Shown here one piece after another: positions 6,146-21,025 of a stretch of DNA of 48,672 nt; the stretch's first letter is position 1, and the number at the start of each line of letters is the position of its first letter. Under the pieces are notes generated by a model. It did not search any database. It saw only the letters and a program-made list of their open reading frames with translations, and had not been told where the DNA came from. A program made the translations under genes and the position numbers. This stretch comes from a virus, in IMG/VR virus record IMGVR_UViG_3300028176_000006, positions 1 to 48,672 of that record, one strand, 5' to 3'.

Positions 6146-6169
6146 GTCCTTTCATCCTCCAACCCCCAG

Positions 6170-6568: not shown

Positions 6569-6586
6569 AATTAAAACCCCCCTTTA

Positions 6587-8212
6587 CTAGAACGGACTAC
6601 CACTTGGTGGCATCTGTTCGCCTTGCTGTTGAACTTGTTGTTCCTGTGGAGTAGGTTGCGCTTGCATCAGCAAGTCTTGATCTTTCATACCAAACCCAAG
6701 AGCAGTCATAAACTTCTGCATAAGATTAAACCTATTAACAATATCAGGAAACGCTTGAGCCACAGTCATTAGCTTCTGCATATACATCTGTCTCGCCTCA
6801 ATAGCGGTTGACCCAAACTTAACCGATAGTTTCATTCCATCAAATGGCTCTATCATCCAAGCATCTTCTTTAGGTATTCCAACAATCTCTGCTATTCTTT
6901 CGGGTTGCATAAAGTCGGATGATAGCTTCAACATCTTTCTCATTATATTCTGCGTAAACATAGAAAGCAGTAATGCTCTATCTTGATTGCGTGTTTCAGA
7001 TGAAGCCTTTAACATCTCCGCTTCGGCTTTTGTCTCTACTCCCGGCTCGTGTGTTCCACGTTCCTGCATTGTAGAACCCGATATACCACGTATCTGTCTT
7101 TCTATTATGCCCATTACAGAACTCCACTGAAATACATTTGCCGATGTGGTTATTTCTCGAACAGGTTCTGCCATCATAGATGTTAGTCCATCAATAGGAA
7201 GTATAATTCTTGGTGAATCTGATTCTAATAATGCTATAACATTACGACCAATGGAGGTATCAGCTTCAAATATCTTTCTAGCCGCTTGTTTAACATCTTC
7301 ATCCATATAATGATTTGCATACGCAAGTCTAACTAAATGATTCTCAATATCCTGAGTAACTGATTTACCCCAAAATCTCTGCGGTCTTGTCTTGGTGAAA
7401 ATTAGTTGGTCGTATATTTCAAGACCATAGTCATCATCATACTGTAAAAATTTATCGTGCCCTTGAGTAAAGGTCATTATCTTTCCATTAGTCAAATCGT
7501 GTAATTCAATAAGAGTAACCATGTCCTGTAAATCAGATGCCCTGAATTGGGTCTGCATGTGCTTTGGAAGCTCTTCTAGTGAAGACAGGTTTGATTTAAG
7601 ATTTGCTGTATTCTCGTATATATTACTATCTTTTACCTCGTCAACTGGCTTAATTATTTCTTCAGCAAACCACCGCTTCTCTTTCCATGAAGAATATCTA
7701 TGATCCCATAGAGAATTCATAGGACTAACTCTTTGCGACATCGGCATTTCGTTACTGATAGTAAACTGCGATAGATTATACTTTGAAACTTCGACATCGT
7801 AAAGTATGCCAGTTTTGTGAACTCCTCCACCTAGTATTAATGTGTCTAATATAATTTCACGAATAGTATCGAACATATCTAAATATTCAAATAATTTCAA
7901 AGCGTAAGTTTCATATACTAGTGCGGCTAGGGAATTACCAGATACCATGTCGTCAACATCGAATACAGGAAAGTTAAAGTCTATCTTCGGAAGAATATTA
8001 TTTATGATTGGGTCTAGTTCATTTATAACTACTGGCTTATCTTTATTCGTTAATGGATTGACAGACATGAACTTCTGATTACCCCAAAGGTTACCATCAT
8101 AGATTTCTTCCCAATATTTCCAGTGCGATATAAATGGTTTTCTATATTCCCTTGAAATCTTTATAGTTTTCTTCCATTCTTCTAGTTGTTCTTTCTTACT
8201 TTTAATAGCCAC
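6587..8212 (-). CDS. Portal protein
   Basis: 541 aa, GTG start at 8212; the ribosome site GGTGA overlaps the previous stop. The N-terminal half (WKYWEEIYDGNLW, VINELDPIINNILPKIDFNFPVF, then LILGGGVHKTGILYD) has the layout of podovirus portal proteins that form the dodecameric head vertex. A helical stem region and an Ala/Met-rich segment follow (ETKAEAEMLKASSETRN). The tail is rich in Gln and Pro (QPTPQEQQVQQQGEQMPP), as is usual for this family. Length fits the T7/P22-like range (500-725 aa). It acts with the terminase at the packaging vertex and binds the adaptor encoded at 43849-44553. Confidence 0.8.
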   Translation of the reverse strand: MAIKSKKEQLEEWKKTIKISREYRKPFISHWKYWEEIYDGNLWGNQKFMSVNPLTNKDKPVVINELDPIINNILPKIDFNFPVFDVDDMVSGNSLAALVYETYALKLFEYLDMFDTIREIILDTLILGGGVHKTGILYDVEVSKYNLSQFTISNEMPMSQRVSPMNSLWDHRYSSWKEKRWFAEEIIKPVDEVKDSNIYENTANLKSNLSSLEELPKHMQTQFRASDLQDMVTLIELHDLTNGKIMTFTQGHDKFLQYDDDYGLEIYDQLIFTKTRPQRFWGKSVTQDIENHLVRLAYANHYMDEDVKQAARKIFEADTSIGRNVIALLESDSPRIILPIDGLTSMMAEPVREITTSANVFQWSSVMGIIERQIRGISGSTMQERGTHEPGVETKAEAEMLKASSETRNQDRALLLSMFTQNIMRKMLKLSSDFMQPERIAEIVGIPKEDAWMIEPFDGMKLSVKFGSTAIEARQMYMQKLMTVAQAFPDIVNRFNLMQKFMTALGFGMKDQDLLMQAQPTPQEQQVQQQGEQMPPSGSPF

Positions 8213-8217
8213 TTATA

Positions 8218-10260
8218 TCACCGCCTTTTAACTTCAAAGTGAACATGCAATACAGTTGAGGAGGTTCCTTTAGTTGCCTTTACCCTAGCATACCAATCAC
8301 CAGCAACGACAGTATCAGGAACGGTGAACGCATATTTATAATGACCAGTAGACTCTTTAACTAGTTTGGAAGAGTCATAAGCCACTCGTCTAGAGTTCCT
8401 GCAATCGTATATCTCTACAGTGTGTGAATCTGGGTCATAAAGAGTTTCCGTTTCAAAATCCCTAATATCCCATTCAACAATGCAAGTCTGACTTGGAAAT
8501 ACGTGCATTTCAGCACCTCCGTAGAAATGAATACCGGTTACAATATATTCGGGATATATTTCAGCGTTGTCAAAATAAACAATTTCGGAAAATAGAGTGG
8601 ATGGTGATTCAGTAATGTCAATTACTTCAGTAATATTTTTACCAATCGTCTTTACAATTTCATCAGTTAATGCTATGTTATCTTGGAATATTAAAGTGTT
8701 GCCAGTGAATACTGTTATTATAAGACCTATTACATCGCCTTTTGGTGCATACACAATCTTCTCTATAACTTCGGACAATCTTTCCTGCTCGTTAATATAT
8801 AGCCAATACTCACCTAATCCATTATACTTTAGCAATCTTAGATGTTGCCATAATTCAAACCAACTACGCACAGGTCTTGCAAACAACTTGGCAACTGAGT
8901 CTGATAAAGAAAGCGCAGACTCGAAAAATCTTAAATGACCTGATGTAAGGATTGCCAAGAACTCTGAAAGATTAAACGAATCACTTACGTATTTCTGTAT
9001 TCCCTTTATATTATAATCAGTTAGATAGAAGTAATCAAATACTGCAAGTGGTTTGGTATTTAGACCATGAAAACTATCAATAACATTGACATAGTCTACT
9101 ATATACTTTGTTACTCTTTTACCGATTGTATCTAGTAAAGGGATGACATCATTAGGATATGGATAATCACCGAGTATCCTAACTACATCAGCGTTATCGT
9201 TAAGGATAATATTGTCTATATAAGATGGCGACCAAGAAGTATTAAGAGATGATAAAGATGCTAATGATAGAGATTCATTAATTGGTTTTGAAGGACTCTT
9301 GGATGATAATTCTGATAATGACAATGACTCCACTGGGGAAAGTGTATGAATTACTGCAAATGGCGTATTAGTTCCAGCGAATATCATGTGCTTATTTGAT
9401 AGACCATATAATAAAAAAGCACCATTCGTTCCAGAAGCACGAGCACCTACTTTATCAGTAGAGTTTGCCGCAGAATCAGTAAACGCAATGCCCTGCACTC
9501 CAAATGTGCCCCATACATATAATCCACTAGCATTGGTGTCATCCCATAACTCCGAATAATACCCACTAATTACTTCGGTGGACGACCACTGCGCCCCAGC
9601 AACGGCATATATAGTTGTAGGATTTACATTAAATACAGCACCGCTTTTATAGTAACCGTTAAGTAGAAACTTAACATCTGTATGAGCTATATACCCTTCA
9701 AAAATCTCATCTTCATCCACCCCAATAGTAAATGAGCCTTGACTTTTTAGGGAAGCGCCAGAAAGTGGCGGATCTGTTGTCGATCCATTTGGTCTAACTT
9801 TAAAGTTATCTGTGCCGGCGACTGACCATATTTGAAGTATAGCCGCTATAGCTACCTCTGTTGTATGTGCCGATATATCAATATCTTGATATGATCCAGT
9901 GGTGCCTAAAGATATACTCACTCCATTAACAAACATATCTACTTCATCTTCGACATACCCAAGAAGATATATTTTGAAAGTATTGTTCTCTAGTTTAGCC
10001 TCGAAACATTTATCCCCATCAATACCTATTGTCATCCATAAAGTGCTTCTTCCGACTGTATCAATATATATTGCATCAGTAGACCCTTTACATCTAATAT
10101 CCCAAGAATACAGACTCGATGTTGATTGAGAGCATCCTGCAAGTATAACACCCCTTGCGTCTGCAGATACATATGCAGACACGTCTATAGTCTGATACGA
10201 CCCATATGCGGCAGGAATTAACTCTATTACATCAGCACCCTGTAAAAGGACGGTAGCCAT
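8218..10260 (-). CDS. Large repeat-containing virion appendage/tail protein, 680 aa
   Basis: ATG at 10260, following the previous stop as TAAATG. Three tandem beta domains of about 100 residues start the protein. Repeats 1 and 2 are clear by eye: GSYQTIDVSAYV against GSYQDIDISAHT, then CKGSTD against PNGSTTD, then TIGIDGDKCFEAKLEN against TIGVDEDEIFEGYIAH. Repeat 3 is more diverged. The middle (about 310-560) has short repeats around S-L-S-L-S-E and I-x-L-T-D-E-I-x-K, common in phage tail appendages. The last 100 residues look like an Ig-like domain (HTVEIYDC, YAFTVPDTVVAGDWYARVKA). Called a receptor-facing or head/tail appendage by composition and position; no catalytic site is seen. Confidence 0.6.
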   Translation of the reverse strand: MATVLLQGADVIELIPAAYGSYQTIDVSAYVSADARGVILAGCSQSTSSLYSWDIRCKGSTDAIYIDTVGRSTLWMTIGIDGDKCFEAKLENNTFKIYLLGYVEDEVDMFVNGVSISLGTTGSYQDIDISAHTTEVAIAAILQIWSVAGTDNFKVRPNGSTTDPPLSGASLKSQGSFTIGVDEDEIFEGYIAHTDVKFLLNGYYKSGAVFNVNPTTIYAVAGAQWSSTEVISGYYSELWDDTNASGLYVWGTFGVQGIAFTDSAANSTDKVGARASGTNGAFLLYGLSNKHMIFAGTNTPFAVIHTLSPVESLSLSELSSKSPSKPINESLSLASLSSLNTSWSPSYIDNIILNDNADVVRILGDYPYPNDVIPLLDTIGKRVTKYIVDYVNVIDSFHGLNTKPLAVFDYFYLTDYNIKGIQKYVSDSFNLSEFLAILTSGHLRFFESALSLSDSVAKLFARPVRSWFELWQHLRLLKYNGLGEYWLYINEQERLSEVIEKIVYAPKGDVIGLIITVFTGNTLIFQDNIALTDEIVKTIGKNITEVIDITESPSTLFSEIVYFDNAEIYPEYIVTGIHFYGGAEMHVFPSQTCIVEWDIRDFETETLYDPDSHTVEIYDCRNSRRVAYDSSKLVKESTGHYKYAFTVPDTVVAGDWYARVKATKGTSSTVLHVHFEVKRR

Positions 10261-10659
10261 TTATACAATCACCTTTATAACTCTTTCTCTTAGTTTGCCA
10301 AGAGTCTCTTCATCTATATAAAATAATTCCGAATTACCACTCTTCTCATTTTCATCTAACAACGCTAATTGCATCTGGTCATACAAATCGTTACATAGTT
10401 CATTGTAAAGGGCTTCGCTTTTCTCTTTGGTGGAGAGCACATCAAACTTCTGGAACTTATAACTATCCCCATACTTCCAAAACACACGATACGCATATTG
10501 CAGTTCAGCTAGTAACATTGTGTATTTCGGCTCAACACTTCTACGAATACCCTCATGCTGTATTTTATCGTAGTTTATTCTGCCAATATAGTCTTTTATA
10601 TATTGCTCTTTTGGGTTTTCACCAGAAAGAACTAATTTCCTAGCATCATCTGATTTCAT
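10261..10659 (-). CDS. Hypothetical late protein, helical, 132 aa
   Basis: ATG at 10659, just after the TAA of the upstream gene; its own TAA abuts the ATG of the 680-aa gene. The sequence is mostly helix-forming and charged (YIKDYIGRINYDKIQ, LLAELQYAYRVFWKYG, ALYNELCNDLYDQMQLALLDENE) with no membrane segment or motif I recognise. Its tight spacing to both neighbours shows it belongs to the packaging-to-portal part of the late unit. A chaperone or minor structural protein for the 680-aa appendage is possible but is only a guess. Confidence 0.55.
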   Translation of the reverse strand: MKSDDARKLVLSGENPKEQYIKDYIGRINYDKIQHEGIRRSVEPKYTMLLAELQYAYRVFWKYGDSYKFQKFDVLSTKEKSEALYNELCNDLYDQMQLALLDENEKSGNSELFYIDEETLGKLRERVIKVIV

Positions 10660-10661
10660 GT

Positions 10662-11174
10662 TTAGCTAGCTCCGCATGTTAAAGTCCATGTTATTACCAG
10701 TGAATCAGATGCACCCTTGTTGATTACACTGAAGTCGGTATAAGTCATCATTGTTCCAGCAGATGCGTCGTTGAATACCCCAGCCTCTACCAATGCACCA
10801 GTGCCTGTTCCAGCTGGGAATGTAGCCACCCATACTACATCATTGTCGGATGCCCCAGTTCCCTGGGTTGTAGAGTCCAATGCAACACGGGCAAGTTCTG
10901 TTTCAAGAGTAGTTGATGCTGTTGATTTTCCACCTGTTGCAGTTCCAACCGCCATGTGTGTGGGAAGGGCAACACCTCTGTCAGACATAGCATCTGCCAC
11001 CAAAGCATCGCCAAGCACTGTTACTGCGTTCTTCTGGTGTCTTTCGTCTTTCAGGTTACCATACTTATCAAAGAGTAAAGCATGAACCCAACCTTCGAGA
11101 GGGAATTTAGACCGCAGTCCTTTATTGAAACCTAATACCGCTAAATCTCTTACGCCTACATTACTGTTTGCCAT
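10662..11174 (-). CDS. Virion-associated protein, 170 aa, paralogue of the 1582-2013 product
   Basis: ATG at 11174 with AAAGGAA upstream. Begins with a mobile helical segment (VRDLAVLGFNKGLRSKF), then a short tail-type strand (WVHALLFDKYGNLKDE). From residue 60 it is a Thr/Ala/Gly-rich beta domain: MAVGTATGGKSTAS, ETELARVALDS, VVWVATFPAGTG, VEAGVFNDASAGTMM, VITWTLT. The same order of motifs occurs in the 143-aa protein at 1582-2013, so the two probably arose by duplication and occupy related sites in the particle. Similar domains are found in podovirus head or tail fibre proteins. It is separated from the terminase gene by a 94-nt gap that holds two palindromes. Confidence 0.65.
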   Translation of the reverse strand: MANSNVGVRDLAVLGFNKGLRSKFPLEGWVHALLFDKYGNLKDERHQKNAVTVLGDALVADAMSDRGVALPTHMAVGTATGGKSTASTTLETELARVALDSTTQGTGASDNDVVWVATFPAGTGTGALVEAGVFNDASAGTMMTYTDFSVINKGASDSLVITWTLTCGAS

Positions 11175-11187
11175 TTCTATTCCTTTC

Positions 11188-11246
11188 GCAGTATCTTCGA
11201 TACTGTAATTGCAGACTGAATCCTTGACTGAATCTTAGATTCAGTC
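11188..11246. repeat. Double palindromic element between terminase and virion protein genes
   Basis: First stem-loop GCAGTATC-TTC-GATACTGT at 11188-11206, then the spacer AATTGCAGACTGAATCC. The second, GACTGAATC-TTA-GATTCAGTC at 11226-11246, is a perfect 9-3-9 palindrome. The first hairpin is identical to the one at 5267-5285, and its 3' flank recurs at 18938. No T-run follows on either strand, so a plain terminator is unlikely. Confidence 0.85.
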
Positions 11247-11268
11247 TGGCTTTCAGAATTAAATCTTG

Positions 11269-12831
11269 TTAAACTGCTGCACGCCTGTAATAGGGGTCTT
11301 TTTCATATCGTTGCCTTGAACCGTTTGTATCTGAAACTCTTTCCAACAAACTGAACATATCTTCTTCGCCGTCAGCAAACCGAATCGCTTCCACCCTTTC
11401 CACCGATGGCGTTAAATTACTCATACATAAATAGCGAATTACATCTGCAGGATGTTTGTATTTATCATTAGCTGGTTTCCTTATATCAGCCCCACGTTTG
11501 TCTCCCCACGAATGATACTGCATTGCCTCTATAGCCACTGGGGTTTCGGCTGAAAAGTAAAGTGAGGGATGAGGCTTCGCCAATCTTTGTTCGACAGCGT
11601 TTATTCCTATGTGAACATTGTTATCAGCTGATAAACCCATCAATCCATACTCACGCATCTCTGCGAGAAACTGGGGATCTTCGGGGTCAATATAAAGATT
11701 GCAGAGGGACGGTGCTTGTCCATTGCTTTGAGCATTGCGCCACGTAGTAAGGTTTCTATTCTCTTGGGGATTTCGGAAGGGTCTGAATGTCAGATTATAG
11801 GCTGCCAACCTTTTCTGCCATATTACGTTAGCCCTATCGATGTATTTAGTTTCCGTGTCGTAATACTCGTCAGTAATATACAAGCACCCGTCATAACCAG
11901 TAACACCTGATGCCCAATAAAACATACCAGAGTAGCCAGGGTCTATAGCTTCCCATCTGTTCCAGTTCGTGGGAGTCGAAAACGGTTTAATCACATGAGT
12001 TAGAGTATCGAACGATTTGAAGATTGCACCAGAGATTACAACGAACTGCCCTTCGTATTGCTCAGCAAATATTAAGGGATTCATCCATGACCGAATCCAG
12101 TATGGATCATCTTTGAAGTCAGGGTTTTCCCAGCTAGGCCAGATGTTGGTAAAATACATAGGGTCGTAATTTTCATGCCCTAGTATGCCTTTCTCCGTAA
12201 AGTTGAGCAGCCACCCATCTGGGTCATTAGGCGGTGCTTTACCTGCTGGTGTTCCAGAATTGAGAACCCCTCCCATTCTTGATGCTAGACGACCATGTAG
12301 TATTCTTTCATAAAGTTCTTTGGGTCGTTTAATTTGCGCCGGTTCGCAGAATACAAGTAGGTCTACTTCTTCTCCAAAGGCTGAAGTGCCCGCCCTCTCC
12401 AAAGAGATGCAGGTTACTTCACTACCCCACTCGGTCATTATCTGCATGTTACCAGACGAAGGACTGTAAACAGCTCTTGTTAATACACTGTTGACATCCC
12501 CGAACACCTCATAAAAGGCTTCGGAATGGTAGGAGTCCCATATATAGCGAAATTCCTTTTCGGTAGTATCATACGTTTGACCTACCAGCCATATTCTAGT
12601 CGGACCGATTAGTGATAAAGCAGTTGCTTCTTCACCAGAACATCTGGATTTGCCACCTCTTGTTCCAGCTATTGCAGAACGAAAACGAGCTTCCGAAAGA
12701 TGTATCGGTATCTGACCTGTATGAGGTGAATAGCCTATTCTTTCAAACCATCCCCACTTAAAAGCCGCAAAGGCTTCAGCACGCTCATTAGGTGCTAGAG
12801 GTTTGGTTGTAATAGCTCGTTGTGTGTGCAT
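11269..12831 (-). CDS. terL: Terminase large subunit
   Basis: 520 aa from ATG 12831, which overlaps the upstream stop as TGATG (the frame also has a TTG one codon earlier). The ATPase domain shows a Walker A variant AGTRGGKSR (about residues 55-63), Walker B LLVFCE (about 158-163, catalytic Glu 163) and the coupling-type SGTP (about 192). The RNase H-like nuclease half starts with EAIDPGYSG (Asp about 297) and has further acidic positions at YIDPEDP and near KHPADVIRYL. The enzyme pumps DNA into the prohead through the portal and cuts the concatemer. Length is normal. The gene is second in the late unit, right behind the likely small subunit. Confidence 0.92.
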   Translation of the reverse strand: MHTQRAITTKPLAPNERAEAFAAFKWGWFERIGYSPHTGQIPIHLSEARFRSAIAGTRGGKSRCSGEEATALSLIGPTRIWLVGQTYDTTEKEFRYIWDSYHSEAFYEVFGDVNSVLTRAVYSPSSGNMQIMTEWGSEVTCISLERAGTSAFGEEVDLLVFCEPAQIKRPKELYERILHGRLASRMGGVLNSGTPAGKAPPNDPDGWLLNFTEKGILGHENYDPMYFTNIWPSWENPDFKDDPYWIRSWMNPLIFAEQYEGQFVVISGAIFKSFDTLTHVIKPFSTPTNWNRWEAIDPGYSGMFYWASGVTGYDGCLYITDEYYDTETKYIDRANVIWQKRLAAYNLTFRPFRNPQENRNLTTWRNAQSNGQAPSLCNLYIDPEDPQFLAEMREYGLMGLSADNNVHIGINAVEQRLAKPHPSLYFSAETPVAIEAMQYHSWGDKRGADIRKPANDKYKHPADVIRYLCMSNLTPSVERVEAIRFADGEEDMFSLLERVSDTNGSRQRYEKDPYYRRAAV

Positions 12832-13331
12832 CAATTCTCTTTTCTAATATTAACTATCTCATCTGGTTCATCGCCCTTATTTTTATCTACCGCATCATGT
12901 GATGGATTTAGTCTTAGTATGTTATCTGTTCCATGCTTTTCAATTACTAGTGCCCTAGCCTTTTCTGCTGCTGTTAGGGTGTTTGATAAAGCGTCAGGAT
13001 TGTTTTTAATGATTTCATTCACGGATTTTGTAAAGTTAAGATTCTTGTTTTCAGTCTTTTGAACTGGTGATGCCGTCTTTGTTATAGCCATTCGACTTAA
13101 AAAGGAATAAGACGCACCTTCTGATACATCACCATCTGCTACTTGCTTTAATATAGTAGCCATGCTTAAATCACCAGCGAGTTCAGATAAAGGTTTATCG
13201 TTTGCATCAAGAGACTCTTCAGTCTTTTTTGCGATTGCATCTGCAATTCTTCCCATCTGTTCACTGTAAGGAGTTACAATATGTTCTGGGTATATCTTTT
13301 CCCAGTAAACTTTTCTTGTCATCTTAATCAT
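12831..13331 (-). CDS. Probable terminase small subunit
   Basis: 166 aa from ATG 13331; an in-frame ATG at 13322 is also possible, and neither has a strong ribosome site. First gene after the minus-strand promoter and coupled (TGATG) to the large terminase. The protein is helical and charged. The N-terminal part (MGRIADAIAKKTEES, LSELAGDLSMATILKQVADGDVSEGASYSFLSRM) could hold the DNA-binding helices, the C-terminal third is Lys/Glu-rich with a central helix (LTAAEKARALVIEKHG), and the tail is acidic. Small terminases are poorly conserved, so the call rests on position, size and helical character. Confidence 0.55.
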   Translation of the reverse strand: MIKMTRKVYWEKIYPEHIVTPYSEQMGRIADAIAKKTEESLDANDKPLSELAGDLSMATILKQVADGDVSEGASYSFLSRMAITKTASPVQKTENKNLNFTKSVNEIIKNNPDALSNTLTAAEKARALVIEKHGTDNILRLNPSHDAVDKNKGDEPDEIVNIRKEN

Positions 13332-13379
13332 CCAATTTATTAATCTATTGTAAATCGTTACACTTTGCCTTACGTAATC

Positions 13380-13408
13380 ATTATATCATAAAGTGAATGA
13401 AATGTCAA
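13380..13408 (-). promoter_or_regulatory. Consensus sigma70 promoter of the late (minus) arm
   Basis: On the minus strand TTGACA (13408-13403), a 17-nt spacer and TATAAT (13385-13380): both hexamers perfect and the spacing ideal. Transcription would start near 13373, about 40 nt before the first late gene. Host RNA polymerase can therefore read the whole minus arm directly; no phage polymerase gene is present. Confidence 0.9.
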
Positions 13409-13739
13409 ACTTTATTTTGAGGGAATTGGAAGTGGTTCAATCTATTTATAGATTGCGTTATTTAGGATTTTTATAATATGGGAATAAAGGATATACTGTT
13501 CTATGATGGGGATTATTAGTCTATTGCCATTTTAATGCGACAGATGCTAGGGTGTGTATTATACCCGCTTGTGGCTAGATGGACGCACCGACGCTTTTGC
13601 TTTTCGGCTTGCCGATTATAGCATTATGCAAGCTGTCAAGTCTATAGAGTATGGCATTATCAATGCTTATGTGGTGCCACTATAGATTAATACATCACTT
13701 CTTAACGTCCCATATATAAGGATATACTCAATACCATAT

Positions 13740-14175
13740 TACAATACACCATAAACGCCCAACGTTGGCATGTAAGCTCATGGAATACCATAAGCCATTG
13801 AATACACACAAAGGTTATATAAAGGCTTATATGGGCATATTCAAAGTGTGGCATATATACAAAGGATATCCGGAACCATGCATCCGGAACATGTCATAAA
13901 CGATTGACGTTGACATGTAAGCTCATGGAATACCATAAGCCATTGAATACACCATTACACCATATAAAGGCTTACAAGGGCAAATTCAAACGCTTGCATA
14001 TCTCAAAGTATAATCCAATACCATATCATACAATACACCACAAACGATTGACGTTGACATGTAATGGCATACTTTGGCACGTGTTCATGTATGCACGTAT
14101 ATCAAACGTAAAGCTTACAAGGGCAAATTGGATGGTCTTTTGTTGAAATCGTGTTACCAATTCTTATACTTAACA
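13740..14175. repeat. Three imperfect tandem repeats of about 145 bp (iteron-like)
   Basis: A 39-nt block starting CATGTAAGCTCATGG is identical at 13769-13807 and 13914-13952. A 23-nt block, AAACGATTGACGTTGACATG plus TAA, is identical at 13898-13920 and 14042-14064, with a diverged copy at 13753-13775. A third block, AAAGGCTTACAAGGGCAAAT in its full form, occurs near 13821 (variant), 13966 and 14109 (variant). Each recurs at 144-145 bp, so the whole unit was duplicated twice and then diverged, the third unit most. Confidence 0.85.
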
Positions 14176-14240
14176 CTTGTGAAGTATATCGTGGAACAAT
14201 TTCACCGTGGAACAAAGTGTATCTTTTTTACCACAGAGGT

Positions 14241-14255
14241 GTGTCAATATGACAC
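14241..14255. promoter_or_regulatory. Palindromic operator-like site 1
   Basis: GTGTCA-ATA-TGACAC, a perfect 6-3-6 palindrome, followed by ATGGGGTGTGCCATTTTG. The flank resembles the reverse complement of the site cluster at 14395-14432, so the two places look like copies of one binding module. Upstream, CGTGGAACAA occurs twice (14190 and 14206). Confidence 0.6.
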
Positions 14256-14394
14256 ATGGGGTGTGCCATTTTGTCGCCACACTTCGCAAAGGAAATGTAT
14301 GACCAATAACGCAAGATTTTATAAATCTATATATATATAAATAAATAAATAAGAAGTTGTATTATTGTCTTACTTAATTATATTGAGTCCACTA

Positions 14395-14432
14395 GTGCCA
14401 AAATGGCACATGGGTGTGTCAAATTGACACAC
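14395..14432. promoter_or_regulatory. Pair of palindromic operator-like sites 2 and 3
   Basis: GTGCCA-AAA-TGGCAC at 14395-14409 is followed five bases later by GTGTGTCAA-A-TTGACACAC at 14414-14432. Both are perfect. They lie about 250 bp upstream of the early promoter and share the TGACAC/GTGTCA half-site with 14241-14255. Binding by a phage or host regulator is an inference. Confidence 0.6.
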
Positions 14433-14676
14433 CATTTTCTCACTATTGGGAAATTTTTCATAGCAATAATCATGCCAACCTTGCAAATCCTTTATTGACG
14501 CCATTCTACAAGGTTTTGAAAAATTCTCATTTTTGAGAATCATGTTCCAGAATGATACACTTTACCACAGCAATAATCATACCAACTTTACTCAATCGTT
14601 GTCAATCGTTTATTCATGCGGATTCACATGATTTTGAAATAAATCAATATATTTGTATATTAATGTATTATTTCCC

Positions 14677-14705
14677 TTGACATTGGCATTATTTTATGGT
14701 ATAAT
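14677..14705 (+). promoter_or_regulatory. Consensus sigma70 promoter of the early (plus) arm
   Basis: TTGACA (14677-14682), a 17-nt spacer, TATAAT (14700-14705): a perfect consensus promoter. Start expected near 14712, giving a leader of about 55 nt that ends in AAAGGAG before the ATG at 14768. It mirrors the minus-strand promoter at 13408-13380. Confidence 0.93.
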
Positions 14706-14767
14706 TATGGCATCAACCAATTTATGGTTCAACCGGTTCTAAACTATTCAATTAAAGGAGTATTACA

Positions 14768-15346
14768 ATGGACTACAAAGCAATTACAGACCAAGTTAAA
14801 TCAATTGTTAAAACTGATGAGCCAAAAGCACTTTCACTTTTGGAATTACTTAACAACGGTGATAATGAGAAAGCAAACGCCCAACTATCCGAGATCAAGG
14901 CAGAAATATCACTTGACGCAAAGAAAGAGCAGGCACTGAGTCTGTCTAAATCATATTTAGACATACTTCGGACAACGATTGAAAGTTTACCGCTTCCTGA
15001 AACTTTGCAGGAATATTCAAGGGTATCGTTGAATATTACGCTGATGAGAAAAACGACCAAAGATAAAGAGACACAGATTGAGACAACGGTTGAATCATGG
15101 ACGCCGTCAGTAGTCATAAATCCCAAAGGTGATAAGATGAAAGCGGACAAAGTTTCCACTTCAAACGGTTCATCCGATGCACCGGATGGTATATCATGGA
15201 ACCAATTTGTGAAAGACACTGCTCCTCAAACATTTCAAAAGTATGAGGGTAAAAGTGTCAATATGCGAGAAGTGGCAAAGCGTTTGCTCAAGGTTGGATA
15301 TTATAATGACAATTTTGAAGTGATCGGTGATAACGAGCCTGAGTAA
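14768..15346 (+). CDS. First early-arm protein, hypothetical, 192 aa
   Basis: ATG at 14768 with AAAGGAG eight nt upstream, directly behind the consensus promoter. It should be the most strongly and earliest expressed plus-arm gene. No family recognised. Residues 1-75 are helical (ALSLLELLNNGDNEKANAQLSEI). The middle is a short beta region (SRVSLNITLMRKTTKD, ESWTPSVVINPKGD), then a Ser/Gly linker, then a C-terminal helix region (GISWNQFVKDTAPQTFQKYEG, MREVAKRLLKVGYY). A terminator follows at once, so it forms its own short transcript as well as leading the arm. Its place suggests host takeover or a DNA-binding regulator, but nothing proves that. Confidence 0.75.
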   Translation: MDYKAITDQVKSIVKTDEPKALSLLELLNNGDNEKANAQLSEIKAEISLDAKKEQALSLSKSYLDILRTTIESLPLPETLQEYSRVSLNITLMRKTTKDKETQIETTVESWTPSVVINPKGDKMKADKVSTSNGSSDAPDGISWNQFVKDTAPQTFQKYEGKSVNMREVAKRLLKVGYYNDNFEVIGDNEPE

Positions 15347-15372
15347 GACATAATCACTTTATAACTTCTTTT

Positions 15373-15405
15373 GGCATCAAGTCTACGGATTTGATGCCAT
15401 TTTTT
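15373..15405 (+). terminator. Rho-independent terminator after the first early gene
   Basis: GGCATCAA (15373-15380) pairs with TTGATGCC (15391-15398), with a 10-nt loop and six T residues from 15400. It ends or attenuates transcription from the early promoter 27 nt after the stop. Confidence 0.85.
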
Positions 15406-15421
15406 ATGAGAACATTTATAT

Positions 15422-15444
15422 CGACATAATCTTCGATTATGTCG
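15422..15444. repeat. Palindromic element CGACATAATC-TTC-GATTATGTCG
   Basis: Perfect 10-3-10 stem-loop, flanked by GTGTCGGAC on the right. A near-identical copy (one changed base) is at 17429-17451, and related CGACATTAG forms lie at 23589 and 23717. It sits between two terminators, so it is not itself needed as one. Confidence 0.85.
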
Positions 15445-15489
15445 TGTCGGACTTTATAATTGCAACACTTTATTAATGTATCAATTCAT

Positions 15490-15519
15490 AGCTCGATAGC
15501 TTCTGCTGTCGGGCTTTTT
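15490..15519 (+). terminator. Second terminator before the next early gene
   Basis: AGCTCGATAGC pairs with GCTGTCGGGCT across a TTCT loop (11 bp, two or three of them G-T), followed by TTTTT. It resembles the terminator at 17523-17553, which ends in the same CGGGCTTTTTC. Confidence 0.75.
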
Positions 15520-15574
15520 CTATTAGTGAAAGAACAATTCAAATATCTTCAACTATAGTCCACACTCACACTTT

Positions 15575-15596
15575 TTGTAGATTAACTAATCTACAA
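15575..15596. repeat. Palindrome TTGTAGATTA-AC-TAATCTACAA upstream of the 186-aa gene
   Basis: A perfect 10-bp stem with a 2-nt loop lies 38 nt before the ATG at 15634. It could fold in the leader of that mRNA or be an operator. The arms differ from all other copies of the palindrome family. Confidence 0.7.
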
Positions 15597-15633
15597 TTTG
15601 TGTCGAGCATATCGGACTGAAAGGAACTTTACA

Positions 15634-16194
15634 ATGGATAAAAAAACAATGCAGAATCTTTCAAGTTCTACCATGGCAAGCATAATCGAAGACTTGTCTA
15701 CTACTCTCAATTTTAGAGAAGCAGAGGTAGAAACTCTTCAAAATTATTGTGAATCAGAAATTGAACAGCTCCGAACAGACCACACCTACAACATTCAAAA
15801 ACTCCATAAAGAGTATTGCGAAACTATAACAATACTAAAAGATAATCAGGACGAGGAGAGAGAACTCCATAAATGTCTAATAAAAGATTTAGAAGAGAAA
15901 AGAGGTCTGGATATTCACAATGCCGAGTATAGCCTGTGCAAAGGGTTTGAAACTCAAATAGTCAACACAATGACTATAATTCTTGAGGGAACTGACTATT
16001 CTGACGGAATCTCTGATTCCGTCGGGTCGGATTCTCAAAGAGAATCCAGAAATCTCGAATCTCACGCCTACAAGTCTTTACTTTATCTTGTAGAGGTTAT
16101 GGACACACAGCTTATCTCTATGAACATAACCAACAACTTTCAGGGTCGCATTATGAATAGTATAAAAGAAATACTGTCTGTGAGCAAAAAATGA
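15634..16194 (+). CDS. Hypothetical coiled-coil protein carrying an in-frame double palindrome, 186 aa
   Basis: I start it at ATG 15634, nine bases after AAAGGAA; a longer frame from 15598 lacks a site. The first 110 residues are strongly helical, with coiled-coil character (LQNYCESEIEQLRTDHTYNIQKLHKEYCETI) and many Glu, Lys and Leu. No family recognised. Codons from 16003 fall in a palindromic double element and spell SDGISDSVGSDSQRES, a hydrophilic insert between two helical regions, best explained as an inserted element tolerated in a loop. The stop overlaps the next start as ATGA. Confidence 0.65.
   Translation: MDKKTMQNLSSSTMASIIEDLSTTLNFREAEVETLQNYCESEIEQLRTDHTYNIQKLHKEYCETITILKDNQDEERELHKCLIKDLEEKRGLDIHNAEYSLCKGFETQIVNTMTIILEGTDYSDGISDSVGSDSQRESRNLESHAYKSLLYLVEVMDTQLISMNITNNFQGRIMNSIKEILSVSKK
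16001..16050. repeat. In-gene double palindromic element
   Basis: GACGGAATC-TCT-GATTCCGTC (16003-16023, with a C-G and a T-G pair outside it), the spacer GGGTC, then GGATTCTC-AAA-GAGAATCC (16029-16047). The first copy is in codon phase and encodes D-G-I-S-D-S-V. The spacer and the order match the double element at 38368-38415 read on its coding strand, where the protein is also D-S-V-G-S-D. Confidence 0.9.
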
Positions 16195-16910
16195 AAACTC
16201 TGAAACCAAAAATAAACTTAACGAACACGACCCTTTATAATTCATCGCATCTGGTCGGACTTCTGTCCGACCTTTCTCTATTCCAGTCAGACATTTCCGA
16301 TGAAGATATAGACGGTTTGCGGCTTCAGGTTAAATACTGCCAAAACCGAAAAGGCTGGACGTTGAAAACTGAAATGCCCTATGGTAGAGCATACTTAAAC
16401 GAAAAAGAAATGTTCCTCTATCTACCGCATCCCTGTTCTACCTTTAATAAGCCTTTACTTGTTCAGCTATTCTACCATGAATTGTTGCACACTAAGGGGC
16501 TTCAACATTATCAAATGAACCTAGTCCAGCATTGCAAAGATGGCTACGATCAGTTCTTCTGGGCTAATTCCTACCCTTTACATTTTGGGCGCAAAACTCC
16601 ATCAGGTGATTACACTGCTGACTATTACGATGTGGCTCTTATAAGCTATAGTGTGCCAAAAAGTATAACTAATTCTATCGAAATAAACATGATGGAGTAT
16701 ATGGTTAGAAACCTTGCGCCATTGATAGGCTATGATGTAAACCTGCAGTATATGACTGCTTCTATTGACCCACGCAAGTCCACTTTGTCCAACGGACACT
16801 GGCAACATCAGGCTGTTGAAGAGCATCGGACTTTCAACAGCATCTACGAGATGTATGTGTTTTTCTTAACTAAAATCTATAGCTCTACTACTGAGGAGGC
16901 TGAAGTATAA
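16191..16910 (+). CDS. Metzincin-motif metalloprotease-like protein, 239 aa
   Basis: ATG at 16191 overlaps the previous stop. Residues around 98-108 read HELLHTKGLQH, which is exactly HExxHxxGxxH, the zinc-binding signature of metzincin-type peptidases (three His ligands, Glu as general base). The hydrophobic run LLVQLFY just before it fits the active-site helix. No signal peptide, so any activity would be inside the host cell. A Met-turn may be supplied by NMMEYMVRN further on, but this is uncertain. No named family recognised. In the early arm, such an enzyme could cut a host protein; that is an inference. A perfect palindrome lies inside the gene at 16253-16272. Confidence 0.6.
   Translation: MKTLKPKINLTNTTLYNSSHLVGLLSDLSLFQSDISDEDIDGLRLQVKYCQNRKGWTLKTEMPYGRAYLNEKEMFLYLPHPCSTFNKPLLVQLFYHELLHTKGLQHYQMNLVQHCKDGYDQFFWANSYPLHFGRKTPSGDYTADYYDVALISYSVPKSITNSIEINMMEYMVRNLAPLIGYDVNLQYMTASIDPRKSTLSNGHWQHQAVEEHRTFNSIYEMYVFFLTKIYSSTTEEAEV
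16253..16272. repeat. In-gene palindrome GGTCGGAC-TTCT-GTCCGACC
   Basis: An 8-bp, 4-nt-loop perfect stem-loop inside the metzincin-like gene, coding for V-G-L-L-S-D-L. It is more GC-rich than the 9-3-9 copies and may be a relative or an independent hairpin. Confidence 0.65.
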
Positions 16911-17119
16911 TGGGCGACAAAAAGAACATTTCTTTGAAATGTCCTGTCGACGGAATTAGAGATTCCGTCTATCTACTTATAAGTCATAACAAACTGAGAG
17001 CAGAGCTAATGGCTCTTGCTTTAAGAATCTGGATAACCGACTCAAATGAAACTGGTGCAATCTCAAAAGCTATAGACTTAATACTAAGCAAGTATATCAT
17101 TGCTGAGAGGGAGAAATAG
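16910..17119 (+). CDS. Small hypothetical early protein with in-frame palindrome, 69 aa
   Basis: ATG at 16910 overlaps the TAA of the upstream gene (TAATG), with GAGGAGG nine nt before. Residues 14-20 (DGIRDSV) are encoded by a 9-3-9 palindrome at 16949-16969, in the same codon phase as the copies in other genes. The rest is helical and Ala/Leu/Ile-rich (LRAELMALALRIWITDS, ISKAIDLILSKYIIAEREK) with no recognised domain. The CPVDGIRDSVYLLIS start leads into a helix, so the element has become part of the N-terminus. Confidence 0.6.
   Translation: MGDKKNISLKCPVDGIRDSVYLLISHNKLRAELMALALRIWITDSNETGAISKAIDLILSKYIIAEREK
16949..16969. repeat. In-gene palindromic element GACGGAATT-AGA-GATTCCGTC
   Basis: 9-3-9 stem-loop with one G-T pair at the loop end, in codon phase (D-G-I-R-D-S-V). 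It differs at one base from GACGGAATT-AGA-AATTCCGTC at 17456-17476. Confidence 0.85.
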
Positions 17120-17121
17120 AC

Positions 17122-17382
17122 ATGCCGGCATATCTTGAAAAAGCTATAATCGAAGAGCTACCCAGCGATCTGAAACTTATAACCAACAGTCGTGAATTCG
17201 ACGAGGTAATAGATGCCATAGGTCTAACCGATGACGAGGATATAGAAGGTATGGGTGGACTGATGGTAAAATTGGACAGCATTGGCTTTCCTGAAGAAGT
17301 CTGGGGATTCTTTGGTTCAGTTCCCTATAACCATAAGGGTTGCTGGTGCTTATTCAGCATAACCGAGGAGTTTGTGAAGTGA
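17122..17382 (+). CDS. Small acidic early protein, 86 aa
   Basis: ATG at 17122, two nt after the previous stop; the GAGAGGGAG upstream is a good site. Acidic (pI clearly low), with a helical first half (YLEKAIIEELPSDLKLI, FDEVIDAIGLTDDEDIEGMGGLMVKLDS) and an aromatic, Gly- and Cys-containing end (VWGFFGSVPYNHKGCWCLFSI). No family recognised. Small acidic early phage proteins often act as inhibitors of host enzymes or DNA mimics; here that is only a possibility. Its stop overlaps a possible GTG start for a 36-aa frame. Confidence 0.6.
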   Translation: MPAYLEKAIIEELPSDLKLITNSREFDEVIDAIGLTDDEDIEGMGGLMVKLDSIGFPEEVWGFFGSVPYNHKGCWCLFSITEEFVK

Positions 17383-17489
17383 ATCTCTACTCAGATGGAA
17401 TTTTAATTCCATCAGATATAGCCCTTGTCGACATAATATTCGATTATGTCGTGCTGACGGAATTAGAAATTCCGTCTACGTTGTTTTAG
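17379..17489 (+). CDS. Possible 36-aa frame made largely of palindromic elements
   Basis: GTG at 17379 overlaps the previous stop (GTGA) with GAGGAG eight nt upstream. The frame stays open for 36 codons through three palindromes to TAG at 17487-17489. It encodes NLYSDGILIPSDIA and then LVDIIFDYVVLTELEI. The first palindrome gives D-G-I, in the phase used in other genes. It may be a true small gene, the remnant of a longer one invaded by elements, or chance. I favour remnant or chance slightly over a working gene. Confidence 0.35.
   Translation: MNLYSDGILIPSDIALVDIIFDYVVLTELEIPSTLF
17394..17476. repeat. Cluster of three palindromic elements
   Basis: GATGGAATT-TT-AATTCCATC (17394-17413); CGACATAAT-ATTCG-ATTATGTCG (17429-17451); GACGGAATT-AGA-AATTCCGTC (17456-17476). 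All stems are 9 bp and perfect. The second is a one-base variant of the 15422 copy, and the third a one-base variant of the 16949 copy. Confidence 0.9.
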
Positions 17490-17522
17490 CCTTTAAGTAT
17501 CTATAATCCCCCATTTTTTTAC

Positions 17523-17553
17523 AGCCCGACAGTGAATACTGTTCGGGCTTTTT
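17523..17553 (+). terminator. Rho-independent terminator
   Basis: AGCCCGACAGT pairs with ACTGTTCGGGCT (one bulged T) around loop GAAT, followed by a T-run. It closes the first block of early genes 70 nt before the next ribosome site. The rest of the 241-nt gap (17383-17623) holds the palindrome cluster and nothing else I can name. Confidence 0.85.
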
Positions 17554-17623
17554 CAGCTGTAAAATCAACTCAACAACAAAGTTGTGAGTCTAAATTCAAA
17601 ACAACCTACCAAAGGAGTTAAAG

Positions 17624-17824
17624 ATGTCTAATGCAAAAAGCACTATTGAATCCTCGATACTGGATGGACTTACAGGAAATGTTAAAGTAGCTATAGCAAT
17701 AAGACCTGATGATATTGCAGAACTAGCCATTAAAGACGTAATTGATGCTATGTTTCATAGTTCTGTTCGATGGTCTGTAATACAATATGCAAAGGAGCTA
17801 GAATTATGCACCAAAGAGATGTAG
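17624..17824 (+). CDS. Small hypothetical early protein, 66 aa
   Basis: ATG at 17624 with AAAGGAG at ideal spacing. Ser/Ile/Ala-rich and helical (STIESSILDGLTG, DIAELAIKDVIDAMFH, WSVIQYAKELELCTKEM). No motif recognised and no membrane segment. It starts a new gene block after the terminator; the next gene begins inside its last codons, so the two are translated together. That coupling to a DenV-like repair gene hints at a shared process but does not define one. Confidence 0.6.
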   Translation: MSNAKSTIESSILDGLTGNVKVAIAIRPDDIAELAIKDVIDAMFHSSVRWSVIQYAKELELCTKEM

Positions 17825-18174
17825 ACCCAGCTATTATTTGCCGTAAGCACTTAATCGCAGAACACGCTGAAATACACATGTTTGTTGGGACTATTGAAGT
17901 CAAAAAGCAGTTGGACGGTTATGCTACTGGTAACTGCTTGGACATTTCAAAGTTAAAGCATAGACATGATGTGCTAGCGGCTGAGATGCTTAAGCGAAAC
18001 TACCAACACTACTCACCTTTACCACAAGGAAGAATTAATGAACTAGACCTGTCCTACTTACCCGAGTGGGTAGTCGAAACTACCATTGACGCTGACGTAA
18101 GTCTATTTCAGTTACTTAACTGTAAAGAGTGCTGCGAACTCTATTACTTGAAGGAGAATTCAAATGAAAGATAA
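17806..18174 (+). CDS. Pyrimidine-dimer DNA glycosylase, T4 DenV-like
   Basis: 122 aa from ATG 17806, chosen because AGGAG lies 9 nt upstream; a longer frame from 17770 has no site. The segment ICRKHLIAEHAEIHMFVGTI (about residues 10-30) matches the DenV core (QHLMAEYRELPRVFGAV in T4), keeping His15 and both acidic positions; Glu22 would be the catalytic Glu23 of T4. LAAEMLKRNYQHYSP further on matches the T4 IAECLKRGF region. In this family the free N-terminal amine attacks the damaged base after Met removal; here residue 2 is His rather than Thr. The enzyme nicks UV-damaged DNA. Match is by eye, so moderately sure. Confidence 0.6.
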   Translation: MHQRDVDPAIICRKHLIAEHAEIHMFVGTIEVKKQLDGYATGNCLDISKLKHRHDVLAAEMLKRNYQHYSPLPQGRINELDLSYLPEWVVETTIDADVSLFQLLNCKECCELYYLKENSNER

Positions 18175-18523
18175 ACCTATTTCTATAAACCCAAAACATG
18201 CACCAAAACCTGAGCCTCAAATATCTTTAACAGACGCTTCATCCGTAGCTGTTGAGTGCTTGCTTCAAGCACTGGATGAGTCAGAAAACGAAGCGATTAT
18301 AGAGCTAAGAACAAGTTTCAAAGTAAAATTCTATTCGGCTCTTATTGCAAACACCCGAATGACTATGGATGCTGGATTTCAAACAGGCAATAAACAATTA
18401 ATGCAAATAGCATCAGCTCAAGCAGACGGACTAATGAAGAGAATTATTGCTGAGGGACTCTTCGAGCTTATTGACCTAGAAATAATGAACGTGCTATCGT
18501 CTATGGGGGCAAAAAGTAATTAA
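18164..18523 (+). CDS. Hypothetical early protein, 119 aa
   Basis: ATG at 18164 overlaps the previous gene by 11 nt; AAGGAG lies 8 nt upstream. Pro-rich start (ISINPKHAPKPEPQIS), then a mainly helical, Ala/Glu/Met-rich body (SVAVECLLQALDESENEAIIELR, QLMQIASAQADGLMKRIIAEGLFELIDLEIM). No recognised family, signal or membrane segment. The next gene is 125 nt away across a cluster of palindromes, so this gene ends a translational group. Confidence 0.6.
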   Translation: MKDKPISINPKHAPKPEPQISLTDASSVAVECLLQALDESENEAIIELRTSFKVKFYSALIANTRMTMDAGFQTGNKQLMQIASAQADGLMKRIIAEGLFELIDLEIMNVLSSMGAKSN

Positions 18524-18629
18524 GACACTAAATTTGGCAGAATCATAAATTCTGCCTATAAAAAGTGTCTGATTGATATAGTCTGACAGTATTTTAATAC
18601 TGTCGACACGACAGTTCTTTGAACTGTCG
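18523..18629. repeat. Palindrome cluster with nested outer stem
   Basis: An outer pair AGACACT (18523-18529) with AGTGTCT (18564-18570) encloses GGCAGAAT-CATAA-ATTCTGCC (18536-18556). Then come GACAGTATT-TT-AATACTGTC (18585-18604) and CGACAGTTC-TTT-GAACTGTCG (18609-18629), four bases apart. All arms pair perfectly though no two arms are alike. They fill the gap before the 90-aa gene. Confidence 0.9.
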
Positions 18630-18647
18630 ATATCGGAGATTAAATCA

Positions 18648-18920
18648 ATGAAAAACTTATCTGACCAGGAACTCAGCATCCTTTATCGTTCACACATGGA
18701 ATACTATAAGGCATCTGTAGAACAGATGAAACTCATTTCAACCGAACAAAGAGTGAGGACATTAGAAGCTAGAAGGCATAGGGCAAAAGAGTATTATGCT
18801 AAATGCCAAGCAGACCTTAATGTTTTAATGAATAGTTATATATTTCAAAAGAGAAGAGATAGAGACGAAACACGTGAAGCTCGTAGGGCTAAAAAATCTA
18901 GCAAAAGAATAGGAGGCTAA
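18648..18920 (+). CDS. Small basic coiled-coil protein, 90 aa
   Basis: ATG at 18648; CGGAGA lies 11 nt upstream. Almost entirely helical and basic: ILYRSHMEYYKASVEQMKL, RVRTLEARRHRAKEYYAKCQ, then a very Arg/Lys-rich C-terminus (KRRDRDETREARRAKKSSKR). The basic tail suggests nucleic-acid binding. No family recognised. It precedes the SNF2-like helicase gene by about 110 nt that hold another double palindrome. Confidence 0.6.
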   Translation: MKNLSDQELSILYRSHMEYYKASVEQMKLISTEQRVRTLEARRHRAKEYYAKCQADLNVLMNSYIFQKRRDRDETREARRAKKSSKRIGG

Positions 18921-18937
18921 TTATCGACTGTATCTGT

Positions 18938-18984
18938 GCAGTATCTATGATACTGTGATTGCAGACTGAATTTTCAATTCAGTC
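18938..18984. repeat. Double palindromic element before the helicase gene
   Basis: GCAGTATC-TAT-GATACTGT (18938-18956), the spacer GATTGCA, then GACTGAATT-TTC-AATTCAGTC (18964-18984). The first stem-loop and spacer match 5267 and 11188; the second stem-loop matches 23232-23252 except in the loop. The remnant TTTGATACTGTC and the 10-bp palindrome GTGTCGACAC (19001-19010) follow. Confidence 0.9.
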
Positions 18985-19028
18985 AATCTTTGATACTGTC
19001 GTGTCGACACCTGAAAGGAGTCAGACCA

Positions 19029-20981
19029 ATGCCTTTAGTAATTGACCGAAAAGAAACTGGAAAGATGCCAGCTATAGGCATAAGAGGCTATCTCAACTTT
19101 AATGACGAATATCAAATCCAGCATTTAGGGGCAGTCTTTCGTTCTAAGAATCGCAAGAACTTTATGGAGGGCGAGGACTTCAGCTGGAGGAATAAACATC
19201 ATTATGAGATGCCATTACCCATAGCCAAAAGGCTCTTTTTTCCGAATGGCACAACAGTTCCTCCAGATTTCATGACCGCTAATAGCTGGCAGGATAAAGT
19301 CGAACCTGACAACCTTTATGAAGATGATGAAAGTCAGTGGGCTAAAGATACACGACTTAGACTACAGAATTTCAGGGTAACTAAAGAAGCACTAGATATG
19401 ATAACCGACTTTGAAACCTTCGAAGAGTCTATGCTTTTAATCAAGGCTAACGATGAATTCTTTATAGACTGCATACTCCAAGAAGCTGGAATAGAAGAGG
19501 ACTGGTTTAATCGAAAACCCAAGATACACCAAAAAGCAGGTCTAGCTTTCTTTCTTCTATGTCTAAAACATGGATGGGGTCATATATGCCTGTTTGATGA
19601 AATGAGAACTGGAAAGACCAAGCAAGCGATAGATATATCAACCCACCTATTACAGAATGAAATGGTGAAGTCTGCATTGGTTATAGTTCCTAATACTATA
19701 AAGAGGGTATGGCGTGAAGAAGTAAGACTGGACTCGCCGTTATACGGTAGCTTTCTACAAATAGTAGAGGGAACTAAAGCAAAGAAGAGGGCAAGCTGGA
19801 ATCAGAGGGCTTTCTTCTACGTTGTAAACTATGAAGGTGCAAGGGCTGATTCCGAAGAACTTTATAAGTGGGAAGAATCAGTAGGAAATGACTACATACT
19901 AATATGCGATGAAGCTCATAAACTGAAGAATCCCAATTCTCAGCAGTCTGAAGTAATCCGAAAGCTCAATCCCAAGTATTCTATTCTACTTACAGGAACT
20001 CCTGTATCCAACAGACCAGAAGATATATGGAGTATGACCGACTTTGTATCACCTGCTTTATTAGGTAAATCAATAGAAGATTTCTATGAAAGATTCGCCG
20101 ATAGAGGTGGCTACAATGGTAAAGCTATATCAGGCTATCATGACCTAGACGAGATTAAATACCGCATAGAAAGAATATCTATGCGTAGGTTACGAAAAGA
20201 TGTAGTATTCGATAAAGTTATGCGCCAATCCAGACTTGGAACTATGGGTAAGAAGCAATCTGAAGCATATGAAAAGATGAGAGATGAGTTGTGGGCTGAA
20301 CTAACCAATGAAGATTTGGAATGGACTAGCGTTACAGCACGTAACAAGCTGGTTCAGATTATGCGTCTGCAACAGATAACTTCTGGTTTTTTATCTTCAG
20401 TAGCTGGCGATGCCGTTTGGTTTGATGATGCAGATAACTGGAAATTCAAAGAACTCGATGACTTTATAGATGAGTATTTGGATGATATAGGTGGCAAACT
20501 AGTTATATGGTCAAGATTTGTAGCACCCATAACCCGGCTGACTGAACGATATGAAAAGTATGGAGCTACCTGTATCTATGGTGCTGTCTCAACTGATGAA
20601 CGCTTTGAGAGGATGCACCGATTTCAGACAGATACTGACACCCAAATAATGGTAGCGCAAATACAATCAGCGGGGCTTGGTCTAGGATTCCAACCTGCAA
20701 CCTTTGAAATCTTCATTGACAAATGGTGGAGTCCAGCTGCAAACAAACAAGCCGAAGATAGAATTGTTGGAATACAAAATCCTGTTCCAGTTACAGTTAT
20801 AAGTCTTATAACCGAAGAGACTATTGATGAAAGACTCGAAACTATACTAGAACAAAAGATGGATTGGGCTAGGTCTATTACAGGCGATACTAACGAAGAT
20901 ATACATCTACCTGTATTGGATAAGAACACCCTATTCTATCTTTTAGCCAAGCCATCTGAGGCTGACAGATACAGAGCTTGA
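19029..20981 (+). CDS. SNF2/SWI2-type DNA helicase
   Basis: 650 aa from ATG 19029, which has AAAGGAG nine nt upstream; a longer frame from 18990 lacks a site. Helicase motifs in order: Q-like HQKAGLAFFL, motif I FDEMRTGKTKQA (about 188-198), motif Ia LVIVPNTIKRVW, motif II DEAHKLKN (about 293), motif III LLTGTPVSN (about 321), IV LVIWSRFVAPITRL, V AGLGLGFQPAT, VI QAEDRIVGIQNPV. The SNF2 arginine finger pattern QAxxRxxRxGQ is altered to EDRIVGIQN, so one arginine is missing. Phage SNF2 proteins help replication forks, recombination or branch migration using ATP. It likely works with the primase-helicase at 27713. Confidence 0.88.
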   Translation: MPLVIDRKETGKMPAIGIRGYLNFNDEYQIQHLGAVFRSKNRKNFMEGEDFSWRNKHHYEMPLPIAKRLFFPNGTTVPPDFMTANSWQDKVEPDNLYEDDESQWAKDTRLRLQNFRVTKEALDMITDFETFEESMLLIKANDEFFIDCILQEAGIEEDWFNRKPKIHQKAGLAFFLLCLKHGWGHICLFDEMRTGKTKQAIDISTHLLQNEMVKSALVIVPNTIKRVWREEVRLDSPLYGSFLQIVEGTKAKKRASWNQRAFFYVVNYEGARADSEELYKWEESVGNDYILICDEAHKLKNPNSQQSEVIRKLNPKYSILLTGTPVSNRPEDIWSMTDFVSPALLGKSIEDFYERFADRGGYNGKAISGYHDLDEIKYRIERISMRRLRKDVVFDKVMRQSRLGTMGKKQSEAYEKMRDELWAELTNEDLEWTSVTARNKLVQIMRLQQITSGFLSSVAGDAVWFDDADNWKFKELDDFIDEYLDDIGGKLVIWSRFVAPITRLTERYEKYGATCIYGAVSTDERFERMHRFQTDTDTQIMVAQIQSAGLGLGFQPATFEIFIDKWWSPAANKQAEDRIVGIQNPVPVTVISLITEETIDERLETILEQKMDWARSITGDTNEDIHLPVLDKNTLFYLLAKPSEADRYRA

Positions 20982-21011: not shown

Positions 21012-21025
21012 GGAGGGTATAAGGC

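Follow-up and report, generated by a model that had tools for sequence, protein, structure and literature searches.

Divergent switches and the layout of the viral genome

Divergent phage switch regions are familiar. Like the lambda-type divergent early control region, the region described here has two diverging promoters and, between them, palindromes that are candidate operators; unlike lambda, it has a late operon rather than a repressor gene on one side, and a Pfam scan of the ORFs, which covered part of the small ones, gave neither a CI/Cro-type repressor nor an integrase. In HMO-2011-like podoviruses, too, the late arm and the early arm occupy opposite strands. A further point of comparison is the σ54 (RpoN) promoter, which works with bacterial enhancer-binding proteins (PMC12316311, PMC7057263) and is described by the consensus TGGCAC-N5-7-TTGCT (PMC12316311), with enhancer sites about 70-150 bp upstream (PMC3844500). 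Motifs in our region have the same consensus letters and the exact spacing, and palindromic sites lie near them; unlike σ54 promoters, these motifs sit in a phage control region, occur elsewhere in arrays, in face-to-face pairs and at phased spacing, and are carried by phages that encode no σ54 activator domain (AAA+) above cut-off. The NorR-type enhancer core is GTCA-N3-TGAC, which occurs within two of the window palindromes. Unlike NorR sites, the other two window palindromes and all those of the nearest relative lack this core, and most lie downstream of the motifs: in the window the site at 14544-14558 precedes the exact motif by about 66 nt on the minus strand and the other three are downstream. 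Iteron-type origins likewise have repeats beside an AT-rich block, and related arrays are phased, the phasing having been measured in the arrays of other phages and the window itself holding two motif copies only. Unlike the case of an iteron origin, no replication initiator family was recognised among the proteins scanned, no DnaA box (TTATNCACA) occurs in the window, and the motif is common to phages with different replication genes. A conserved σ54-like motif array at a divergent switch was not found in the open-access papers searched, where absence is weak evidence; here, such arrays span different replication genes and several environments.

The window analysed is the whole of the uncultivated viral record IMGVR_UViG_3300028176_000006 (48,672 bases). 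Leftward genes occupy 1-13331 and 34033-48645 and rightward genes 14768-34282, in two arms that diverge at 13.3-14.8 kb and converge near 34 kb. TerL, a major head protein and matches to SU10-like portal and adaptor proteins lie in the left arm; the right arm has a primase-MCM-like protein, an SNF2-type helicase and an ATP ligase. Because packaging and capsid genes are on the minus strand and primase, ligase and helicase genes on the plus strand, we take the left (-) arm to be late and the right (+) arm early, presumptive labels drawn purely from gene content. At the record ends, a minus-strand frame (3-626) crosses the junction and stops one codon on (1-626 / 48645-48672), and past the junction comes the next gene with a good ribosome site; since a frame closes across the ends, the record probably represents a near-complete genome that is circular or permuted. 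The late arm also carries genes of surface-sugar type (626-1603, 42921-48645), namely glycosyltransferase 9, polysaccharide pyruvyl transferase, TylF and other methyltransferases, and a cupin isomerase-like protein. In the replication arm, an M15 endolysin-like gene adjoins a pfkB-family kinase (23817-25536), and a pyrimidine dimer DNA glycosylase (Pfam Pyr_excise) is found at 17770-18174.

Positions 12500-17500, searched as DNA against the phage collection, matched nothing there closely, and scans with single proteins (primase, first early protein, TerL) gave no relatives; relatives were reached through a four-sequence primase alignment and the capsid protein. Five control regions were compared, that of the window and those of G001, G002, G003 and G005, the last being the nearest relative. 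In G001 a WD40-like repeat ORF, noted only on visual inspection of the sequence, lies near the start of the early arm (L094 5337-5720). Rfam searches of the window and of a set of array loci detected no known RNA.

Promoters, palindromes and terminators of the control region

The two arms are separated by 1.4 kb of gene-free DNA flanked by the first late and the first early gene (Table 1). The sequence-only reading had placed two perfect outward σ70 promoters here, and both proved exact at 12 of 12 positions, the only such sites in the window, where 0.05 would be expected under a Markov-2 null. Each has TGn before the -10 element (TTTATGGTATAAT and TTTATGATATAAT), and transcripts are predicted to start at ~14712 (+) and ~13373 (-). 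The internal σ70-like site at 14605-14576(-) is absent from the sequence-only reading. Both divergent 12/12 promoters are also present in G002, with TATGGTATAAT, where one aligns with the early promoter of the window, and G003 has a 12/12 site on the late side. The proposal of a divergent early/late control region with strong outward promoters is supported, and such outward promoters recur in relatives and in the array phages described below. The promoter layout of the window is an instance of a recurrent phage layout, and the architecture of the region is well supported. A short box at 13584-13606 (CACCGACGCTTTTGCTT) recurs in G001 (95% over 20 nt), and GACGCC boxes resembling it are found in G002 and G005.

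Table 1. Features of the control region and its flanks, in window positions
Feature	Position	Strand	Details
First late gene	12831..13331	-	166 aa; adjacent to TerL; relatives have related genes at this position
Divergent non-coding control region	13332..14767	.	between late (-) and early (+) arms; without credible ORF
Late-arm σ70 promoter	13380..13408	-	12/12; TTGACA 13408-13403, 17-nt spacer, TATAAT ending at 13380; TGn extended -10
Direct repeats, period ~145 nt	13740..14129	.	three partial copies (families D1-D4)
Palindrome site A, GTGTCAATATGACAC	14241..14255	.	exact
AT-rich block	14316..14365	.	46/50 A/T; candidate unwinding element
Palindrome site B1, GTGCCAAAATGGCAC	14395..14409	.	exact
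Palindrome site B2, GGTGTGTCAAATTGACACACC	14413..14433	.	exact; palindrome position 14416
Direct repeat, period ~110 nt	14454..14639	.	two copies (families D5, D8)
σ54-like -24/-12 motif, TTGGCATGATTATTGC	14463..14478	-	exact match
Fourth palindrome-class site, GTATCATTCTGGAAC	14544..14558	-	imperfect; matches three G005 sites
σ54-like motif, TTGGTATGATTATTGC	14570..14585	-	one mismatch; 107 nt away from the exact motif
Internal σ70-like site	14576..14605	-	11/12; 18-nt spacer; TGn; overlaps the second σ54-like motif
Early-arm σ70 promoter	14677..14705	+	12/12; TTGACA 14677-14682, 17-nt spacer, TATAAT ending at 14705; TGn extended -10
First early gene	14768..15346	+	192 aa; good ribosome site AAAGGAG
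Intrinsic terminator after first early gene	15372..15399	+	-19.3 kcal/mol; z -6.7
Second intrinsic terminator	15490..15515	+	-18.3 kcal/mol; z -5.8

The palindromes belong to the class GTnnCA-N3-TGnnAC, which has four matches in 48.7 kb, all of them in the control region; 0.46 would be expected per window and ~0.02 in the control region alone, and none of 100 shuffles reached four. The control region of G005 has three matches, and those of G001, G002 and G003 have none and carry other palindromes. A class that occurs nowhere else in the window and appears again in the nearest relative makes the palindromes good operator candidates, as had been suggested from the sequence. The ribbon-helix-helix ORF at 27447, whose product the sequence-only reading had put forward, with the first early protein, for binding tests on the palindromes, has Pfam matches below cut-off only.

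The earlier interpretation holds in part, for the divergent region, the candidate operators and the presence of the terminators, but it had missed the AT-rich block and the σ54-like motifs. The block lies with palindrome site A on one side and B1/B2 on the other, and AT-rich maxima are present in 5/5 of the control regions compared (null ≤0.005 in each). Each copy of the ~110-nt repeat carries one σ54-like motif on the minus strand.

The first early gene has divergent positional counterparts in G002, G003 and G005, and the predicted structure of its protein (pLDDT 56, pTM 0.30) is too poor for use. Besides the two terminators that follow it, further hairpins occur at ~15422-15444 and ~15575-15596, and hairpins also stand 3' of its counterparts in G003 and G005. 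The terminators had been thought to suggest attenuation or antitermination of the plus arm. The hairpins are real and placed alike in two relatives, but strong expression of the first gene as a transcript of its own, with limited read-through, explains them as well as antitermination does and is the simplest reading. These observations bear on the possibility that the region is an ordinary divergent σ70 pair, with a repressor acting on the palindromes, antitermination after the first gene and σ54-like motifs that are idle. The perfect promoters, the palindromes confined to the region and common to G005, and the terminators would all fit; we nevertheless consider this reading unlikely, since it leaves the enrichment and conserved placement of the motifs unexplained and since no repressor or antiterminator gene was identified among the ORFs scanned.

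A σ54-like motif in the window, in its relatives and in other phages

Copies of TTGGCAY-N5-TTGC, which equals the σ54 -24/-12 consensus, occur in 5/5 control regions. For TGGCAY-N5-TTGC there are 14 exact matches in the five control regions vs 0.05 expected, and none elsewhere in the window; other spacings give 0-1 matches and scrambled motifs a mean of 0.003. In the window motif GG and GC are 10 bp apart, as σ54 promoters require. Since the motif was first spotted by eye and tested afterwards, the weight rests on the independently defined consensus and on recurrence elsewhere.

Pattern scans of the collections for two motif copies returned 11 viral contigs at 82-110 nt between copies and 83 at 20-50 nt, and a much larger bacterial and archaeal collection gave 5 contigs with tandem motifs. 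We analysed 93 loci holding 395 motifs (16 outside clusters), which reduce to 71 distinct arrays of 2-12 motifs, at 31-60% GC and from dozens of phages; 122 motifs fall within ORFs of ≥100 aa from an uncurated set, and a few of the clusters may therefore be coding sequence. Where TerL is present it is directed away from the array (51/51 loci), as is the primase-helicase (16/16), and the two are on opposite strands in all eight contigs that hold both. Strong σ70 sites are found within 700 bp of the arrays 26 times vs 3.6 expected; those flanking the arrays point outward in 24/24, and many share the TATGnTATAAT form. Unpaired motifs aim at the early arm by 158 to 33, or 13:3 with one tie when counted by TerL cluster (17 clusters at 80% identity); related contigs are non-independent, and array counts therefore overstate the number of events. 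Contrary to the majority of arrays, the window motifs point to the late arm. Array spacings are helically phased (period ~9.5, power 22.6 vs a null maximum of 12), with tandem motifs at 25-30 bp and face-to-face pairs at offset ~20 in 16/71 arrays.

The same motif letters are conserved across all this range of GC, in phages with unrelated replication genes (the window group, the array group, Thalassavirus and Pakpunavirus). Because the consensus itself was used to collect sites for the motif logo, the logo core adds no independent support; less constrained by that choice are the spacing control, the enrichment and the W that follows TTGC. The array phages are related to HMO-2011-like podoviruses by primase and portal, but unlike them the cultured members of that group (HTVC103P in the part read, HMO-2011 and CRP-1) have no motif match.

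Candidate readers of the motif and cultured carriers

Our favoured explanation, to which we give an even chance, is that the region is a divergent early/late switch whose motifs would be bound by host σ54. The two outward σ70 promoters would drive the late/packaging arm leftward and the early/replication arm rightward, the four palindromes between them would act as operator- or enhancer-like sites, the AT-rich block could serve as an origin unwinding element, and the two motifs would be occupied by host σ54, most simply as σ54-RNA polymerase. As the motifs are leftward, one overlapping the internal σ70-like site, they could direct activator-dependent transcription across the AT-rich block or, alternatively, hold polymerase there and block the internal σ70-like promoter. 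The same letters across 31-60% GC and unrelated replication genes argue for a host-encoded reader, of which σ54 is the known one. The motif's letters, spacing, W after TTGC, early-arm direction bias, recurrence and cultured Pseudomonas and Vibrio carriers speak for σ54; against it, the 25-30 bp tandems and offset-~20 pairs are too close for two polymerases together, helical phasing is what a small protein binding cooperatively would be expected to give, activation would depend on a host protein since no activator domain is phage-encoded, the window motifs aim at the late arm, and the motif is absent in the cultured Roseobacter and Puniceispirillum relatives. We therefore put the σ54 assignment of the motif at about even odds.

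The phased spacing with its preferred face-to-face offset of 20 could also be that of iterons for a phage protein, or a conserved host protein, that assembles in phase, the likeness to σ54 being coincidental. Such iterons may open the AT-rich block as an origin or mark a packaging site by the terminase genes. The dense arrays, always between replication and terminase genes, the AT-rich block beside the motifs in the window group, the one-mismatch copy by DnaA-type boxes in a Vibrio phage, and a cumulative GC skew that is lowest at ~13-17 kb, though it also tracks gene strand, are compatible with this, and the control region is possibly also a replication origin. Yet the letters stay the same in phages whose replication and packaging genes are unrelated, where a phage-encoded reader should vary; both the conserved letters and their spacing are those of the σ54 consensus, most unpaired motifs share one direction, and the window lacks a DnaA box. 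We regard the iteron role as a serious rival, less probable than the σ54 reading.

It could further be supposed that the motifs are not promoters at all, but a decoy array titrating host σ54 once the phage genome has multiplied. Some phages have up to 12 sites per genome, and 26-29 bp tandems and face-to-face pairs would be too tight for neighbouring polymerases; but for a decoy the early-arm direction bias would be meaningless and a fixed place in the switch region would not be required, and the window has two sites only, which makes this very improbable.

Returning to the switch with σ54 sites, we hypothesise, with less than even confidence, that switches built around σ54-site arrays and flanked by strong outward σ70 promoters could be a widespread, undescribed phage strategy, which would read the state of host σ54 and its enhancer proteins (nitrogen, stress, quorum) or sequester σ54. 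If σ54 reads the motif, the timing of phage gene expression would be coupled to a host regulator of stress and nutrient responses; if another protein does, the motif would mark an origin or packaging element that these phages share and that has gone unrecognised.

The σ54 question is open to immediate test in phages already in culture, PAK_P1 and Thalassa among them. The cultured carriers of the motif are PAK_P1, PAK_P4 and vB_PpS_SYP in Pseudomonas and Thalassa and Brizo in Vibrio, and both of these bacterial genera possess σ54. Pelagibacter is not known to have σ54, and in a Pelagibacter-infecting relative the motif was not found in positions 1-30000 and 44000-54103. Cultured Roseobacter and Puniceispirillum relatives have no motif, and a Rhizobium phage has no exact motif and a single one-mismatch match within coding sequence. 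In Thalassavirus (Vibrio, T5-like; L205 500, 3561; L207 3899, 7456) the σ54-like motif is found upstream of A2, and DnaA-type boxes TTATCCACA adjoin a copy with one mismatch; a simple pattern search around the Vibrio motifs gave no site for LuxO or NtrC. In the Pakpunavirus phages PAK_P4 and PAK_P1 (L208, L209, 4004-4191) a face-to-face motif pair stands just upstream of a σ70-like promoter, and in PAK_P4 the pair sits at the start of the RNA-seq-based antisense RNA PAK_P4as16, whose boundary is mapped too coarsely to tell which promoter is used. For Pseudomonas phage K5, SrpA was considered as reader of the motif and ruled out, its site being TATC-N-GATA (PMC5945682).

Among bacterial MAGs, tandem motifs occur in Fibrobacter by proton-pumping antiporter/Nuo-type genes (L113 67-310), in a 383-kb contig of a Chitinophagales MAG (L112 340-579), and in a Cellulosilyticum MAG contig, where they adjoin a sulfate permease (L115 4248-4443).
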